Of a stretch of DNA of 64,000 nucleotides, positions 5,881 through 53,885 are shown in pieces. The position numbers were made by a program, and so were the translations under genes. Location of the stretch: contig JAHJLB010000018.1 in NCBI GenBank assembly GCA_018822105.1, positions 1 to 64,000 of the forward strand. The letters run 5' to 3'. The notes beneath the pieces were generated by a model. It saw only the letters and a program-made list of their open reading frames with translations, was not told where the DNA came from and made no database searches. Positions within the stretch are counted from its first letter, which is position 1. Each line of letters begins with the position of its first letter. This DNA comes from Pseudomonadota bacterium (GTDB taxonomy: Bacteria; Desulfobacterota; Desulfovibrionia; Desulfovibrionales; Desulfovibrionaceae).

Positions 5881-6861
5881 ATGACCACGCCGACCTATAC
5901 GCACCGGGACCTGTCCCGGCTCCTTGGGGTCTCTGAAACCACGGTGAAGAGCTACCGGAGCAAGTTTCCGGGTTTCCTGCCCGTGGCCCGCGAGGGCAAG
6001 CCCGTGCGTCTGCACCCGGAGGCGCTGGAGGTCTGCCGGCGCATCCGCGACCACTTTGCCGAGGGCTTGACCATCCACCAGACAGCGGAGCGCCTGCGCG
6101 GCGAATTCAAGGAATACCCGCTGGCGCGGCGCCTGGCGGCAGCCGGGCGGCAGGCGCCGGGAATGGGCCTGGGTGCGGACCTGGACGCCCGTCTGGAGAC
6201 CCTGGTCCAGGCCCAGGAGCAGGTGCGGCGGCGCATGGAGCAGATGGAGGCCGAGGTGCGCAACCTGGCCGCCATGGAGACCGCATCCAAAGGCCTGGTG
6301 CTTGAGCTGCTCCAGGAGTTCCGGGCCGCGCGCGCGGAGCCGGCCAGGCCGGCTGCGGCGGCCCCTTCAACGGCGGCGCAGCCCGGCGCTGCGGCTGGCG
6401 GCACGGTGCTCACGGCGCGCAAGATCGTCACAGTGCATGGCCAGGCCGGACAGGAGGCCTCCTATGTCCTGGGCCGCGAGCCCAAGCCTGAGCAGCCCTT
6501 TGCCCCGCCTGCGCTGCCCGGGGAAGACTTTCTGGACCTGCCGGCGGTCATCCGCTCGGACAAGGGCGAATTCCTGGCCCTGCCCGGCGGGCAGTCCATC
6601 GCGCGGCTGGTGGAGCTCTTGCGGCTCCAGGGCGGCGGGCAGCCGTCGTGGTTCGCGGAAGGCCCGGAGACCTGGGTCTGCGAGGTGCCCCTGGGTCCGG
6701 CCCTGACGCGGGAGCTCTTCTTCGAGCGCACCACCACCCCGCGCGGCAACCGCGTGGGGCTTTTCCGGCGCATGCGCGTCCTTTCCGGCCCGGACGTTTC
6801 GGAATTCGACACGGCCGCGCTGCAGGGCTTCTTCCGGGACCTGCGCCTCCAGCTCAGCTAG
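5881..6861 (+). CDS. MerR-family-like transcriptional regulator with coiled coil
   Basis: TPTYTHRDLSRLLGVSETTVKSYRSKFPGFLPVAREGKPVRLHPEALEVCRRI, winged-HTH MerR pattern, then a Q/E-rich coiled coil. Confidence 0.7.
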   Translation: MTTPTYTHRDLSRLLGVSETTVKSYRSKFPGFLPVAREGKPVRLHPEALEVCRRIRDHFAEGLTIHQTAERLRGEFKEYPLARRLAAAGRQAPGMGLGADLDARLETLVQAQEQVRRRMEQMEAEVRNLAAMETASKGLVLELLQEFRAARAEPARPAAAAPSTAAQPGAAAGGTVLTARKIVTVHGQAGQEASYVLGREPKPEQPFAPPALPGEDFLDLPAVIRSDKGEFLALPGGQSIARLVELLRLQGGGQPSWFAEGPETWVCEVPLGPALTRELFFERTTTPRGNRVGLFRRMRVLSGPDVSEFDTAALQGFFRDLRLQLS

Positions 6862-47652: not shown

Positions 47653-48072
47653 TCATTTCACAATGGTCATATGGATGTGATCCCAGTGGGCGTCCAACTC
47701 CTCCTGTGTGGCCTCCCGGATGATCGCCCTTGTCTTTGTGTCTCTATGAAAGCCTCCGAGGGGGCTCATGAACAGCTCCACCTCCCGGTTGTCGCGGGCG
47801 GAAGTCTCAATCTCGCGAAGAAGCTTCCGCATTGCCTCACGCTTGGCTTTCGGCGCGGAGGGGTCAACAGCCAAGCGCACGGACATCTTGTTCACCTCAT
47901 TGATGTCCACGGCCCGGCCCTCAGCGTGGTCGGCATTCTCCTCTGCGCTTTCCGGCTCGGTCTCGGCAGCATGGTAGGTGATCTTCACCCGTTGGGCGCA
48001 TGCTTCGGTGGGAGGTCCAAGCATGAGAAAGGAGACAAGCAGCAGAAGAAGTGTTCGCATCAAATTTTCCAT
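47653..48072 (-). CDS. Exported small M15-like peptidase-domain protein
   Basis: Signal peptide MENLMRTLLLLLVSFLMLGPPTEACAQ; HAEGRAVDINEVN and HWDHIHMT (HxxGRAxD / HxH zinc-site pattern). Confidence 0.6.
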   Translation of the reverse strand: MENLMRTLLLLLVSFLMLGPPTEACAQRVKITYHAAETEPESAEENADHAEGRAVDINEVNKMSVRLAVDPSAPKAKREAMRKLLREIETSARDNREVELFMSPLGGFHRDTKTRAIIREATQEELDAHWDHIHMTIVK

Positions 48073-48075
48073 TAA

Positions 48076-48815
48076 TTACTTGCGAATGGTGATGTGAATG
48101 TGATGCCTGTGGTCATGAATTTCCTGGTCCTTGGCCTTTCGGCCTGAGCTTTTGCTGTTCGGATCAGCAGGCCGGAAGTACCCGTCCAGCGGGTCAATGT
48201 ACGCTTCCACTTCTTTGTTTGCTTCCGCAGCAGTTCTGATTACCTCAAGCCGCGCTGCATCGCTTCGCGCTGTTCCGCCGTCACACTGGGGTCTATGGCG
48301 TCTGAAACCTTCTTCCCGTTGACCCGGTTGGTGTCCACCGCCCGGCCCTCACCGTGAGGCCCCTTCTCACCGGAACGATAGCCGCTGTTCATGTTGAAGT
48401 TTTGGGCACTTGGTGACATGTCTAGAACACTTTGCACCTGTTTACGGGTGTTTGCGTGCAGCGCCTCAGGGTCTGGATTCTTCTTGCCGCTTTCGTCATT
48501 CTTCGTCGAGACGCCTACTCTTCCGCCCTTGCTCAGTGGCACCGGCGGAGGCGGGACAACCTTGCCCTTCTGCACAGGCGGCGTAACTGTCCCGCGCACC
48601 TCATGCGGCAGCGTGACCTTGCCCCGATATTCCGGGCCGCTTGATGCACCGCCGCCTGTTTCGCCGTAGTACCCGTGCCCGCCATAGGGCTGCGGCTTGT
48701 GGCCCGCGCCTATTTTGGTGCCGCCGCCCGAGCCCGGGCTCATTCCGGCTGTAGCCGACTTGTCGTCCTCGCTCACCCTGGTCCAAATGCGCTTGTCCGA
48801 GTTTTCCGTTTCCAT
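48076..48815 (-). pseudogene. M15-like peptidase-domain protein interrupted by an apparent frameshift near 48243-48255 (intact frame 48240-48815; remainder continues in the -1 frame to stop 48076-48078)
   Basis: Frame 1 ends ...GPHGEGRAVDTNRVNG...TAEQREAMQRGLR*; the other frame continues RLEVIRTAAEANKEVEAYIDPLDGYFRP...HDHRHHIHITIRK*, colinear with the downstream paralogue. Confidence 0.7.
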
Positions 48816-48839
48816 ATCCGACCTCCTATGGTCTTTCAA

Positions 48840-48922
48840 CGGAATATAGCCTGGGCTTTTGGGCCAGGACAAAAAGCACCCGTTTTTAGCCGGAAAAAGG
48901 ACGAAAATTCCCGGTTGACAGG
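48840..48922 (-). promoter_or_regulatory. 83-bp promoter-like module, copy A, upstream of the M15-like operon
   Basis: CCTGTCAACC...GTCCTTTTTCCGGC...TTTTTGTCCTG...GCTATATTCCG, aligned without gaps to copy B. Confidence 0.75.
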
Positions 48923-49032
48923 GTTTGGGACGCCTCCGGCGGCCGGGGGGCATGATGCTCCCCGAACCCCCTCATATGGGCTGAGCCGGGGTGGCTGGGG
49001 CGTCGGCATCGGCTGGGCCTGGACCAACACAA

Positions 49033-49150: not shown

Positions 49151-50647
49151 TTACTGCACCTGGGTGGTGACCTTGAGCCCGTATTTTTCGATCTTGGCGA
49201 TGAGGGTGGGACGCGAGAGGCCGAGCAGCTTGGCGGCGCGGGTGCGGTTGCCGCCGGTGATTTCGAGCGCCTCGGCGATGGTGCCGCGCGCCACGGTGTC
49301 CAGCACGTGGTCAAAGGCGGCGTCCCCGGCCTGGTCGAGCAGGGCGCGGCGGATGAAGGCGCGCAGGGGGTCGTCGCCTGCGCCCGTTGCGGATGGTCCC
49401 TGTTGATTGCGGACGGCTGCCGAGCCGCCCTGCCCGTCGCTTTCCGCGCCGCTCTTGCCGATGGCCTGGCGCATTTCCTCCGGGCCGATGGGGCAGCCCC
49501 GGCTGAAGATCAGAGCCTTTTGCAGGGCATTGGCCAGTTCGCGCACGTTGCCCGGCCAGGGCAGGGCCGCGAGCAGGTCCAGGGCCTCGGGGGTCAGGCC
49601 TGGATTCTGCATGTCCATTTCGCGCGCCAGGCGCGAGAGGAAGTGCCGGGCCAGCAGGGCCACGTCGCCCTCGCGGGCGCGCAGGGGCGGCAGGCTGATG
49701 GTCACCACCTTGAGGCGGTAGTAGAGGTCTTCGCGGAAGCGACCCTCGGCCACGGCGGTCTCCAGGTCGCGGTTGGTGGCGGCCAGGATGCGCACGTCCA
49801 CCGGAATCATTTCGCGCCCGCCCAGGCGCTCCACCTGCTTTTCCTGCAGCAGCCGCAGGATTTTGGACTGCACGCCGAGGGGCATGTCGCCGATCTCGTC
49901 CAGGAACACGGTGCCGCGCATGCCCTGTTCGATCTTGCCCACGCGCCGGGCGCTGGCCCCGGTGAAGGCGCCTTTTTCATAGCCGAAGAGCTCGGCCTCC
50001 AGCAGGGTGTCCGGTATGGCCACGCAGTTGATGATCACAAAGGGTTTTTCGGCCCGCGCGCTGTGCTGCCAGAGGGCGCGCGCCACCAGCTCCTTGCCCG
50101 TTCCGGACTCGCCCCGGATGAGCACCAATGCCTCCGTGGGCGCGGCGCGGCCAATGGCCTTGAACACGTCCTGCATGGCGCGGCTGGTGCCCACCAGGGC
50201 GTCGCCCTGGTCGCCGCCGGCCCCGTTCTCAAGCCCGTCCTGGAGCCCTTCCTTCAGGTTGACGGCCACGCGGGCCCTGGCCAGCCGTCCGGCCTCCAGG
50301 GCCTGGTGGATGAGCCGCAGGATGTCCGGGATGTCGAAGGGCTTGAGGATGTAGTCAAAGGCCCCGAGCTTGGTGGCTTCGATGGCCGTTTCGGTGCCGC
50401 CGTAGGCGGTCATGATGATCACGGGCAGGTTGGGCACGGCCGCGCGCATGCGCTGCATGGCGGCTATGCCGGTGATGCCGGTCATGCGCACGTCCATGAC
50501 CACCAGGTCCGGGGCGCTGGCGGCGACCTCGCTCACCCCGGCCTCGCCTGAGCCAGCGGTGCGCACCTCATAGCCCTCGGCCTCCAGGATCTTGCCGAAG
50601 CTCTGGCGCAGCTGGGCGTCGTCGTCAACAATCAGGATCTGGGCCAT
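49151..50647 (-). CDS. Sigma54-dependent NtrC-type response regulator
   Basis: ILIVDDDAQLRQSF receiver, GESGTGKELVARAL, GAFTGA, Fis-type HTH GGNRTRAAKLLGLSRPTLIAKI. Confidence 0.95.
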   Translation of the reverse strand: MAQILIVDDDAQLRQSFGKILEAEGYEVRTAGSGEAGVSEVAASAPDLVVMDVRMTGITGIAAMQRMRAAVPNLPVIIMTAYGGTETAIEATKLGAFDYILKPFDIPDILRLIHQALEAGRLARARVAVNLKEGLQDGLENGAGGDQGDALVGTSRAMQDVFKAIGRAAPTEALVLIRGESGTGKELVARALWQHSARAEKPFVIINCVAIPDTLLEAELFGYEKGAFTGASARRVGKIEQGMRGTVFLDEIGDMPLGVQSKILRLLQEKQVERLGGREMIPVDVRILAATNRDLETAVAEGRFREDLYYRLKVVTISLPPLRAREGDVALLARHFLSRLAREMDMQNPGLTPEALDLLAALPWPGNVRELANALQKALIFSRGCPIGPEEMRQAIGKSGAESDGQGGSAAVRNQQGPSATGAGDDPLRAFIRRALLDQAGDAAFDHVLDTVARGTIAEALEITGGNRTRAAKLLGLSRPTLIAKIEKYGLKVTTQVQ

Positions 50648-50716: not shown

Positions 50717-52255
50717 TCAGGATCTGAGCCATAGCTTCTCCCGAACGGGCAGCACGAGGACAAAGGTCGCGCCCTGGTTCTTGTCAGAGGGTTTGATGTG
50801 GATGTAGCCGCCGTGCTCCTCCAGGATGCGCTTGGCGATGGCCAGGCCCAGGCCCGTGCCTTCCTCCTTGGTGCTGAAGAAGGGCTGGAAGACCTTTTCC
50901 TGGAGTTCCGGCGGGATGCCCGGGCCGGAGTCCGCCACCTGGAGGATGACCACGCGGCCGAGGGGCTCCATGAACCCGGTCTGCTCGGTAATTTCGAGGC
51001 GTCCGTTCTCGCCCATGGCGTCGCAGGCGTTCAGGATGATGTTCACCAGCGCCTCCTTGAGCTGCTCGGGGTCCACGTTCACCTCGGGCAGGGGCTTCTC
51101 GCGCGTGAGGCGCACGTCCACGGCGTAGGTCTCCAGGCGGTGCTTGAGCAGCACCAGGGTCATGTCCACCACGTCGGAGGGGCTCAGGTGCTGCAGCTTT
51201 GGCCGGGGCGGGCGCGAGAACTCCAGGAAATTGCGGACAATGGTGTCCAGGTGGCGGATCTCCTCGCTGATGACCTCGAAGTCTTCGCGCTGCGTGGCCG
51301 AGATGTCCAGGCTGCGCTCCAGGGAGAACAGGCGCATCTTGACGCTGGTGAGGGGGTTGCGCACGCTGTGGGCCACGCCTGCGGCCAGCTTGCCCACCAG
51401 GGCCAGTTTTTCGGCCTGGATGAGATGCTGGCGCGACTCCTCCAGCAGGGTGTGGGTCTGGTCCACATCGCGCAGGAGCCCGTGCACCAGCTGGCCCACG
51501 GCCTGCACCTCGTCCGCGTTGCCCAGGCCCGCGGGCAGGCTCTCGTCCTCGTTCGGGCCCAGGGCCGCGCCCCGGGCCAGGTTGCGGATGGGCCCCAGGA
51601 CCTGGCGCAGCAGCACCCAGCCCAGCAGCAGGCCCAGCACCGCGCCCGCCGGAATGACGAACAGCGAGGCCGTTGTGGCCGCCCGGGCCAGGGAGCGCAT
51701 GGCCGAGACGCCCAGGTCGGCGTCGCGCCCGTGCAGGGCGAAGAGCTCCTGGGCCGCCTCCTGGGCCGCCTCGCGCTGGCGCACGGCCCTGACCAGGATC
51801 GCGGCGCCTTCGCCCGGCTGGCTCTCCACCAGCTGGCGCAGGATCTCAGCCTGGGTCCGGGTGGCGTCGTCCATGCGGCCGATGAGCTCGCGCCCGGCCT
51901 CCATGGGTTCGCTGGCGCGCACCTTGGCCAGGGTCTTGAGGATGGCCTCCTGCCGGCCCTGGAAGTCCTTCAGGCGCGTCGGATTCTGGCGTGCGGCCAG
52001 GGCGTCGGCCTCCAGGCTGATCATCTGCTCCGAGAGCGAGAGCGCGCTGACCTGCTGGCCCAGGTTCACCTGGCGCAGGATGTCCGTGGCGTCCAGGTAG
52101 TGCCGCGCCAGCAGGTAGGTGGCCGTGGCCCCGGCGCAGGCGCACAGGGTCAGACCCACCAGAAGGGCGAACACCCGCCCGCGCAGCGAGGGCTGGATGA
52201 GCAGGGCCAGGCGGCGGAGCGCCGCGCCCAGAAGCGCTTCGGACGGTGACTTCAT
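50717..52255 (-). CDS. Membrane sensor histidine kinase
   Basis: HAMP-like region, VGKLAAGVAHSVRNPLTSVKM H-box, NIILNACDAM N-box, DSGPGIP, GTGLGLAIAKRI. Confidence 0.93.
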   Translation of the reverse strand: MKSPSEALLGAALRRLALLIQPSLRGRVFALLVGLTLCACAGATATYLLARHYLDATDILRQVNLGQQVSALSLSEQMISLEADALAARQNPTRLKDFQGRQEAILKTLAKVRASEPMEAGRELIGRMDDATRTQAEILRQLVESQPGEGAAILVRAVRQREAAQEAAQELFALHGRDADLGVSAMRSLARAATTASLFVIPAGAVLGLLLGWVLLRQVLGPIRNLARGAALGPNEDESLPAGLGNADEVQAVGQLVHGLLRDVDQTHTLLEESRQHLIQAEKLALVGKLAAGVAHSVRNPLTSVKMRLFSLERSLDISATQREDFEVISEEIRHLDTIVRNFLEFSRPPRPKLQHLSPSDVVDMTLVLLKHRLETYAVDVRLTREKPLPEVNVDPEQLKEALVNIILNACDAMGENGRLEITEQTGFMEPLGRVVILQVADSGPGIPPELQEKVFQPFFSTKEEGTGLGLAIAKRILEEHGGYIHIKPSDKNQGATFVLVLPVREKLWLRS

Positions 52256-52317: not shown

Positions 52318-52400
52318 CCTGTCAACCCGCCATTCTTGTCCTTTTCCCGGCCAATTTCAGGTCAATTTTGTCCTGCCGGCAAACCCCGTGCTATACTCCG
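52318..52400 (+). promoter_or_regulatory. 83-bp promoter-like module, copy B, upstream of the lone terminase
   Basis: CCTGTCAACC...TTGTCCTTTTCCCGGC...TTTTGTCCTG...GCTATACTCCG; TTGTCC-N18-TATACT. Confidence 0.75.
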
Positions 52401-52403
52401 CCC

Positions 52404-53885
52404 ATGAGTCGAGAACGCCCCGGCACCCTGCATCTGCGTTACCAGGCCCCGCCCACCATCGCCCTGTTCATGAAATCCTCCGCCTTTTACCGGGGCCTCA
52501 TGGGGCCTGTGGGCTCGGGCAAGTCTTCGGGCTGCTGCATGGAGCTCATGCGCCGCGCCTTTGCCCAGCCGCCCGGCCCGGACGGGCTGCGCCGCTCGCG
52601 CATGGCCGTTTTGCGCAACACCTACCGCGAACTCAAGGACACCACGCTGCGCACCTGGTTGTCCTGGTTCCCGGAGGACACCTTCGGACCGTTCGGGCAT
52701 TCGGACATGCGCCACGCGGTGCGTCTGCCCCACCCCAGTGGTGGCGACGTTGTGCTGGAGGTGCTCTTCCGGGCCCTGGACAGGCCCCGGGACGTGCGCA
52801 AGCTCTTGTCCCTGGAGCTCACCGGGGCCTGGGTCAACGAGGCGCGGGAGATGCCCCTGAGCATCGTGGAGGCCCTGGGCGACCGCGTGGAGCGCTATCC
52901 GGCCAGGCGCGAGGGCGGCTGCGCCTGGGCCGGGGTCATCATGGACACCAACCCCCCGGACAGCGACCATTGGTGGCACCGCCTGGCCGAGGAGTCCCGT
53001 CCCGAGGGCTGGGCGTTCTTCCGCCAGCCGGGCGGCCTGCTGGAGCGCCAGGGCTCCTTTGTCCCCAATGTCCTGGCCGAGAACCTGGCGCATCTGCCCA
53101 AGGACTTCTACCTTCGGCGCATGGCCGGCAAGAGCCCGGCCCATGTGCGCGTGTATTATTGCGCCCAGTACGGCTTTGTGCAGGACGGCCTGCCCGTGTA
53201 TCCCGAGTTCTGCGACTCCGAGCATGTGTCCAGGGCCGAGCTCCTGCCTGTGGACGGCCTGCCCCTGTATGTCGGCCTGGACTTCGGCCTGACGCCTGCC
53301 GCTGTGCTGGGCCAGCGCCTGGCCTCGGGGCGCTGGATCATCCTGGACGAGCTGGTGAGCCAGGACATGGGCATGGTGCGCTTTGCCGGGCTGCTTCTGG
53401 AGCGCCTGCGCAGCCGCTACGGAAACCTTCTCCCTGAGATCTGGGGCGACCCGGCCGGCATGGCCCGGGCCCAGACCGACGAGCGCACGCCTTTCGACAT
53501 CCTGCGCGCCAGCGGCCTGCAGGCGCGTCCCGCTCCCACCAACGACCCCCTGCTGCGCCGTGAGGCCGTGGCCGCGGCCCTGTCCCGCAGTGTGGACGGG
53601 GAGCCTGGGCTGGTCCTGTCTTTGCGATGCCCCGTTCTGCGCAAGGGCATGGCCGGTGCCTGGCACTACCGCCGCGTCCAGGTTTCCGGCGAGGCCCGCT
53701 TTGTCGACGTGCCGGACAAGAACCGCTTCTCCCATGTGTGCGAGGCTGCGCAATACATGCTGGTGGGGGCCGGGGAAGGCAGGCGGCTGCTTGCTCCAAA
53801 GGGGCCAGCCAGTCCCCGCCCCTCCCGCGCCGAGAACCGCTCCCGGCCGGACAGCCTTCTGCCTTCACCCGCGAAGTCCCGCTGA
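52404..53885 (+). CDS. Phage-type terminase large subunit (TerL), solitary
   Basis: RGLMGPVGSGKSSGC Walker A, LELTGAWVNEARE Walker B-like, VGLDFGLTPAA and WGDPAG nuclease motifs, NRFSHVCEAAQYML; no neighbouring phage structural genes. Confidence 0.88.
   Translation: MSRERPGTLHLRYQAPPTIALFMKSSAFYRGLMGPVGSGKSSGCCMELMRRAFAQPPGPDGLRRSRMAVLRNTYRELKDTTLRTWLSWFPEDTFGPFGHSDMRHAVRLPHPSGGDVVLEVLFRALDRPRDVRKLLSLELTGAWVNEAREMPLSIVEALGDRVERYPARREGGCAWAGVIMDTNPPDSDHWWHRLAEESRPEGWAFFRQPGGLLERQGSFVPNVLAENLAHLPKDFYLRRMAGKSPAHVRVYYCAQYGFVQDGLPVYPEFCDSEHVSRAELLPVDGLPLYVGLDFGLTPAAVLGQRLASGRWIILDELVSQDMGMVRFAGLLLERLRSRYGNLLPEIWGDPAGMARAQTDERTPFDILRASGLQARPAPTNDPLLRREAVAAALSRSVDGEPGLVLSLRCPVLRKGMAGAWHYRRVQVSGEARFVDVPDKNRFSHVCEAAQYMLVGAGEGRRLLAPKGPASPRPSRAENRSRPDSLLPSPAKSR

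Follow-up and report, generated by a model that had tools for sequence, protein, structure and literature searches.

A solitary phage terminase gene as a probable unit of a scattered gene transfer agent in Humidesulfovibrio

The terL locus

The window analysed here is a stretch of 64,000 nucleotides (contig JAHJLB010000018.1, positions 1 to 64,000). Its features are listed in Table 1, together with the genes found behind the same promoter motif in the genome. The reading frame of terL runs through without internal stops, and the profile search assigned its product to PHROG phrog_2 ("terminase large subunit") with an E-value of 1.8e-19; no match was returned by Pfam, and a sequence search of the PDB gave no relative of TerL. 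The Walker A motif GPVGSGKS, the segment W-x-N-E-x-R-E and the segments GLDFG, GDPAG and SH..(E/D)A..Y are conserved across 17 homologues, in which the invariant residues include G37-S41, N145, E146, D293, D349 and H444. The open frame and these motifs bear out an earlier note on this DNA, which had described an intact terminase with Walker A, a Walker B-like segment and three nuclease segments.

The left-hand neighbours of terL are genes for a histidine kinase and for a regulator of the NtrC type; to the right come fliL and further flagellar genes. According to the neighbouring gene calls and profile searches, none of the genes adjoining it is a recognised phage virion gene, and with host genes on both flanks the absence of an adjacent terS, portal or capsid gene, also noted earlier, was confirmed. 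The G+C content near terL is about 69%, and the signature of a foreign island was not seen. A DNA-level search against phages yielded only a short terminase match to Mx8, plus matches to regulators. In the phrog_2 profile search of the genome, terL was the sole genuine large terminase gene; a second, weak match (E = 2.8e-4) was rejected, as the gene reads as a PhoH-type ATPase.

Table 1. Features of the terL window and genes preceded by the shared promoter motif
Feature	Position	Strand	Description and basis
terL, large terminase (packaging ATPase/nuclease)	52404..53885	+	493 aa; phrog_2 and conserved motifs
Shared promoter before terL	52318..52397	+	TGTCAA 52320-52325; 22-base core 52333-52354; GTCC repeat 2 52370-52373; -10 TATACT 52392-52397
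Second promoter copy in the window	48840..48922	-	Core 48886-48907
Effector-like gene	48240..48953	-	Modular N-terminus with KIGAGHK, M15-peptidase-like C-terminus; by motif only
Partner gene of the effector-like gene	47653..48072	-	139 aa; apparent signal peptide, M15-like motifs
Host histidine kinase	50717..52255	-	Pfam HisKA/HATPase_c; conserved left neighbour of terL
Host NtrC-type response regulator	49151..50647	-	Pfam Response_reg, Sigma54_activat, HTH_8; adjoins the kinase in relatives
Unit behind motif: TerL			
Unit behind motif: TerS			phrog_4044, 1e-19
Unit behind motif: small protein and portal			Portal PF12236, 2.9e-137
Unit behind motif: major capsid and small capsid-associated protein			Capsid PF19821, 6e-74
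Unit behind motif: adaptor			phrog_394, 1e-49
Unit behind motif: scaffold-like protein			Gene position and matches to phrog_3742 and phrog_458
Unit behind motif: Bbp19-like protein			PF25181, 3e-19
Unit behind motif: long operon of acetyltransferase, internal protein, tail nozzle, fibre, holin and lysozyme			Nozzle phrog_376, 1e-147; holin PF11351, 2e-16; lysozyme PF00959, 5e-15

A shared promoter motif

The sequence upstream of terL (TGTCAACCCGCCATTCTTGTCCTTTTCCCGGCC ... AATTTTGTCC ... TATACT) resembles that upstream of the reading frame 48240-48953 (-), which lies 3.5 kb from terL under the same promoter motif. Within the window, the pattern was matched twice, against 0.01 matches expected from shuffled sequences. 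Genome-wide, the 22-base core has 13 sites at up to three mismatches and none in the reversed control, and a longer form of the motif built from the same genome recovers all 13. The core consensus of 72 sites reads CCTGTCAAccgGgaATTTTTGTCCTTTTacCGGCCAAAaac.GG, after which come another TTTTTGTCC, a stretch of 17-18 bases and TATACT. The two copies of TTTTTGTCC are spaced by 32 bases, corresponding to three turns of DNA, and the second overlaps the -35 position; from this spacing we infer that one activator may bind twice on the same face of the DNA. The adjacent NtrC-type regulator was considered as the controller and, since the sigma-70-like -10 element does not fit a sigma-54 activator, remains a weak lead.

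The same promoter arrangement precedes terL in relatives. Because the ATG of terL begins 6 bases past the -10 element in the genome under study, and 6-9 bases past it in the clear cases among relatives, the terL mRNA is probably leaderless. In the case of terS, the promoter is separated from the gene start by about 560 bases, with a small Ala/Lys-rich host gene on the opposite strand in between (L020:8379-8957), and both the long leader and the opposite-strand gene recur in G005, G084 and G111.

Within the genus (inferred to be Humidesulfovibrio), the comparison covered 11 congeners besides the genome under study, most of the compared genomes being draft or metagenome assemblies. In eight congeners the strict motif has 8-24 sites, with little or no excess elsewhere; few clear copies were found in G053 and G269. 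In G148, G264 and G191, a variant with CATCC or TATCC in place of GTCC precedes the particle genes, and the promoter therefore predates full dispersal of the set. In G111 and G084 several copies of the motif fall at the ends of contigs, which suggests that the assembly broke at repeats.

Virion genes behind the motif

Eight of the 13 sites head particle units, each beside unrelated host genes. Profile support is strong for the portal, capsid, nozzle and adaptor and clear for TerS, the holin, the lysozyme and the Bbp19-like protein; the capsid also has one relative in the PDB (9eg4, E = 3e-25). The long tail and lysis operon crosses the joint of contigs C12 and C28. As judged from the profiles, phage-derived genes for both the virion and DNA packaging are present (TerS, TerL, portal, capsid, adaptor, nozzle, holin and lysozyme), and the motif-headed genes make up a predicted, nearly complete virion set of a short-tailed phage. 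One promoter motif stands before all units of this scattered set and may coordinate their expression under host control. The search for portal and capsid genes elsewhere in the genome, which had been proposed earlier, thus located them, along with TerS and tail genes, at other loci under the same promoter.

The description of terL as solitary consequently holds locally, where its neighbours are host genes, and fails functionally, the promoter being common to the scattered virion genes. A large terminase kept for an unrelated cellular job, as a DNA motor or nuclease independent of particles, is the least probable of the explanations weighed here. It would fit the solitary appearance of terL; against it, the promoter and the presence pattern of terL match those of the capsid, portal, TerS and tail genes elsewhere, and terL adjoins terS in related genera. 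Nor was any support found for a defence role, which had also been suggested for this gene.

The closest phages are short-tailed ones, among them BcepC6B, Methylophilales phage MEP301 and Pelagibacter phage Hodr, and in IMG/VR contigs with a 48-56% identical TerL the portal gene lies beside terL, often with the capsid gene too. Genome G111 also has a distant second set, with genes for portal, adaptor and nozzle lying together (G111:C4:51009-59116), which looks like an ordinary related prophage.

Dispersal and conserved positions

The particle genes occupy at least five chromosomal places. Distances were measured inside single contigs of relatives: terL lies 160 kb from the portal gene in G053, 172 kb from terS in G005 and 289 kb from the nozzle gene in G193, the largest separation, while one contig of G084 carries the adaptor at 4, the portal at 78 and the capsid at 133 kb. 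The dispersal of the particle genes is real. A single contiguous region with its own lysogeny functions, as in a prophage, was not found, the genes lying up to 289 kb apart in single contigs, and no integrase, replication or att module was recognised in the gene calls around the units of the genome under study, nor in the clustered set of G191 (described below) and its flanks of about 20 kb. With the genes spread over hundreds of kb, the whole set cannot in principle fit one particle.

Synteny, the check proposed earlier, showed that the position of terL beside the same kinase is conserved across the genus: it was found in all eight relatives examined, with an extra predicted ORF in between in one of them (L052), and the NtrC-type regulator is kept next to the kinase at this site. 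The kinase gene is a marker of the orthologous site and stands outside the particle set. The right-hand (fliL) side varies across relatives. The insertion described earlier, with a two-component system on one side and the fli cluster on the other, is thus half borne out: the kinase side proved conserved in the genus, and none of the relatives examined showed the fli side. In most relatives compared, the portal unit keeps the same host neighbours, the capsid unit adjoins the gene at L020:3231 and the tail operon the gene at L014:8198.

Selection and inheritance

TerL is present as a single copy in 10 of the 11 congeners and is uninterrupted except for one copy split over two contigs. In the closest pairs its dN/dS (Nei-Gojobori) is 0.19-0.31, against 0.09-0.19 for rpoB, so that the dN/dS test suggested earlier places TerL well below 1. 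Within the genus, protein distances of TerL, portal, capsid, adaptor and nozzle track those of rpoB (r = 0.87-0.96, p ≤ 0.004). These data point to vertical inheritance of the particle genes with the host, under purifying selection; the tracking of rpoB, dN/dS below 1 and the host neighbours are what is expected of a gene transfer agent. The earlier note had named two outcomes that would speak against it, namely a terL within a complete prophage elsewhere combined with relaxed selection here, and absence from all relatives. Neither was found, as TerL is the only one of its genome, evolves under the constraint given above and is widespread in the genus.

Genome G287 (81% complete) is without TerL, TerS, portal, capsid, adaptor and nozzle and has one motif match at background level. 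The chance of missing all six unlinked genes is about 5e-5 (0.19 each; a rough figure, as completeness is not uniform), which makes their loss as a unit likelier, and the incomplete assembly could partly explain the absences.

Decaying prophage debris shuffled round the chromosome, or a fragmented prophage scattered by the assembly, is very improbable as a source of this pattern. The draft genome is indeed fragmented, and the G111 and G084 motif copies near contig ends would fit such an artefact. Against this, long contigs of several genomes carry the genes apart from one another, at orthologous positions and under shared promoters, and the reading frames are open in ten species, with dN/dS below 0.35 in most close pairs.

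From a cluster to a scattered set

In related genera the same particle genes are clustered or half-dispersed. In G191, which belongs to another genus, they lie within about 18 kb in a phage-like order, with no integrase recognised in the cluster, and in G127, G148 and G264 the set is partly separated. Host-like genes (a TPR protein, an HD-GYP-like and a cyclase-like gene, named by eye) are already found among the phage genes of G191 (L284, G191:C22:52001-72000). The G191 arrangement suggests an intermediate state of dispersal.

TerL adjoins TerS in these related genera, and TerS itself differs between the two arrangements. In an alignment of 14 TerS proteins, the C-terminal half is 90% identical within the genus, against 37% for the N-terminal half, which falls to 22% among the deeper members of the genus; for three relatives from genera with terS beside terL, the TerS values are 49% and 64%. 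Weak helix-turn-helix or TerS-family matches, all below curated cut-offs, were obtained only in relatives outside the genus. The predicted helix-turn-helix region of TerS is thus apparently eroded in the dispersed genus and its C-terminus kept; a TerS with no recognisable DNA-binding domain has been described in known gene transfer agents and is a further feature that the genus shares with them.

The same erosion bears on a further alternative, in which the virion genes serve as helpers in, or components of, a phage-satellite system and an incoming phage or satellite exploits the host-encoded particle to spread. Other elements might in principle make use of such a particle, and nothing specific to this was seen; no pac-like or satellite element was encountered in the loci examined here, and the DNA-binding half of TerS, by which such an element would be recognised, is eroded. 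We regard this explanation as highly implausible.

Effector-like genes under the same promoter

The remaining five of the 13 motif sites precede one RHS gene, three effector-like genes and one apparent RHS remnant; at the last of these (L022, G000:C63, site 6805-6826, minus strand) the motif copy stands before a remnant with no open gene. No Pfam or PHROG match was obtained for the effector-like gene of the window. Its start is likely the internal ATG just past the promoter and not the upstream GTG/ATG of the mechanically called ORF. The frame breaks near 48240 and the remainder of the domain continues in another frame to about 48076; decay, a sequencing error or a programmed shift would each account for the break (48076-48240) equally well. 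Homologues of the partner gene follow effector-like genes in G084, with 62% and 89% identity in L346 and L352.

Short RHS proteins and the modular family under the same promoter share N-terminal motifs (KIGAGHK..., LWI.DETG...) and differ in their C-termini (examples are found among loci L337-L396, namely L346, L352, L354, L377 and L389, and at 47653-48953 of the window). The C-termini are M15-peptidase-like by motif, Tlde1 L,D-transpeptidase-like (PF10908, 2e-12 and 1.5e-8) or CHAP-like, the last with an E-value of 1e-3 that is below the curated cut-off. Small membrane or signal-peptide genes come after many effector-like genes; this gene order is typical of effector-immunity pairs, and the genes may form such pairs. 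The number of effector-like genes varies between species; the particle genes do not vary. In G111, identical effector-like and partner units stand in tandem, each with its own promoter (L381, G111:C34:20314-23314).

That effector-like and partner genes use the same promoter keeps alive the alternative of a domesticated killing particle, a headed weapon of the PBSX kind that carries, or is released with, RHS and cell-wall-hydrolase effectors and in which DNA would be incidental. We consider this unlikely, as the catalytic residues of TerL, the C-terminus of TerS and the portal are kept under selection, which would be needless in a DNA-free weapon, and the effector set differs by species while the particle genes stay constant.

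Comparison with known systems

The gene transfer agent of Rhodobacter capsulatus, RcGTA, resembles the present set in having phage-derived genes at several loci, vertical inheritance and a TerS with no DNA-binding domain (PMC9662315, PMC6854486). Unlike it, RcGTA retains a main structural cluster among its five loci (PMC9662315, PMC6854486), whereas terS, terL, portal, capsid and adaptor each lie apart here, and the profiles place the present virion in the short-tailed BcepC6B/BPP-1 type, with a capsid in PF19821 and a portal in PF12236. Dd1 of Desulfovibrio desulfuricans ATCC 27774, a gene transfer agent of the same bacterial order, has its genes in a single uninterrupted island, Ddes_0702-0725 (PMC5701242), in which terS directly precedes terL (PMC6854486). 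Set beside the present genes by its description, Dd1 likewise has a small TerS with no detectable DNA-binding domain (PMC11841831); its single island with adjacent terS and terL contrasts with the scattered set.

FpGTA of Faecalibacterium is a GTA-like element of the short-tailed type with unlinked operons and a TerS with no obvious DNA-binding domain (PMC12946183). It differs in its Gram-positive host and in having two operons, one of which holds terS, terL, portal, scaffold and capsid together, and the part of its description consulted here reports no promoter motif shared with effectors (PMC12946183).

The podophages BcepC6B, MEP301 and Hodr have a TerL that is 46-49% identical. BcepC6B carries the same gene types in the order terS-terL-portal-capsid-cement-tail, with the terS, terL, portal, capsid and tail genes contiguous within 11 kb. 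In contrast to the present set, where there is no such linkage, all three are contiguous phage genomes of 34-42 kb, and BcepC6B has a repressor. In bracoviruses, the nudivirus-derived particles of wasps, virus genes dispersed in the host genome jointly make particles; the host is eukaryotic and the viruses are unrelated, so that the likeness is an analogy of architecture only.

Interpretation

In our opinion, terL is quite probably one unit of a domesticated short-tailed phage of the BcepC6B/BPP-1 kind, scattered through the chromosome under a shared promoter and acting, in these sulfate-reducing bacteria, as a gene transfer agent that has no core cluster. Gene content, inheritance and the form of TerS make membership of the gene transfer agents likely. 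The earlier proposal of a gene transfer agent with split loci, or of domestication, is accordingly supported by the scattered virion genes, the common promoter, the conserved position and dN/dS.

In the proposed mechanism, the promoters would fire and the portal, scaffold and capsid proteins would build a procapsid, into which TerS and TerL would load host DNA by a headful mechanism with no specific start site. The adaptor and nozzle would add the short tail, the holin and lysozyme would lyse the producer and free the particles, and these would deliver chromosomal DNA to relatives. At the same time the co-expressed RHS and peptidoglycan-hydrolase proteins would be released, or would be carried, to act on other cells. 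More speculatively, a single promoter network may serve a weaponised gene transfer agent, in which a dispersed, DNA-carrying particle is joined by polymorphic peptidoglycan-cutting and RHS effectors with immunity-like partners; DNA delivery and the killing of non-kin would then form one programme, with effectors possibly borne by the particle. We put this forward tentatively.

A literature search, most subscription papers lying outside it, found no report of a dispersed gene transfer agent or of one in Humidesulfovibrio, none in which terS, terL, portal, capsid and adaptor occupy separate places behind a common type of promoter and none whose regulon includes effector-like genes.

Gene transfer agents are usually found through clusters that resemble prophages, and searches for such regions would miss a system of this kind or label it debris. 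A single promoter motif before lone phage genes offers a simple search method. The readable series from clustered to scattered genes, alongside the erosion of the DNA-binding region of TerS, opens the steps of phage domestication to study, and the effector-like genes linked to the set pose a question that can be tested, namely what purpose gene transfer agents serve.
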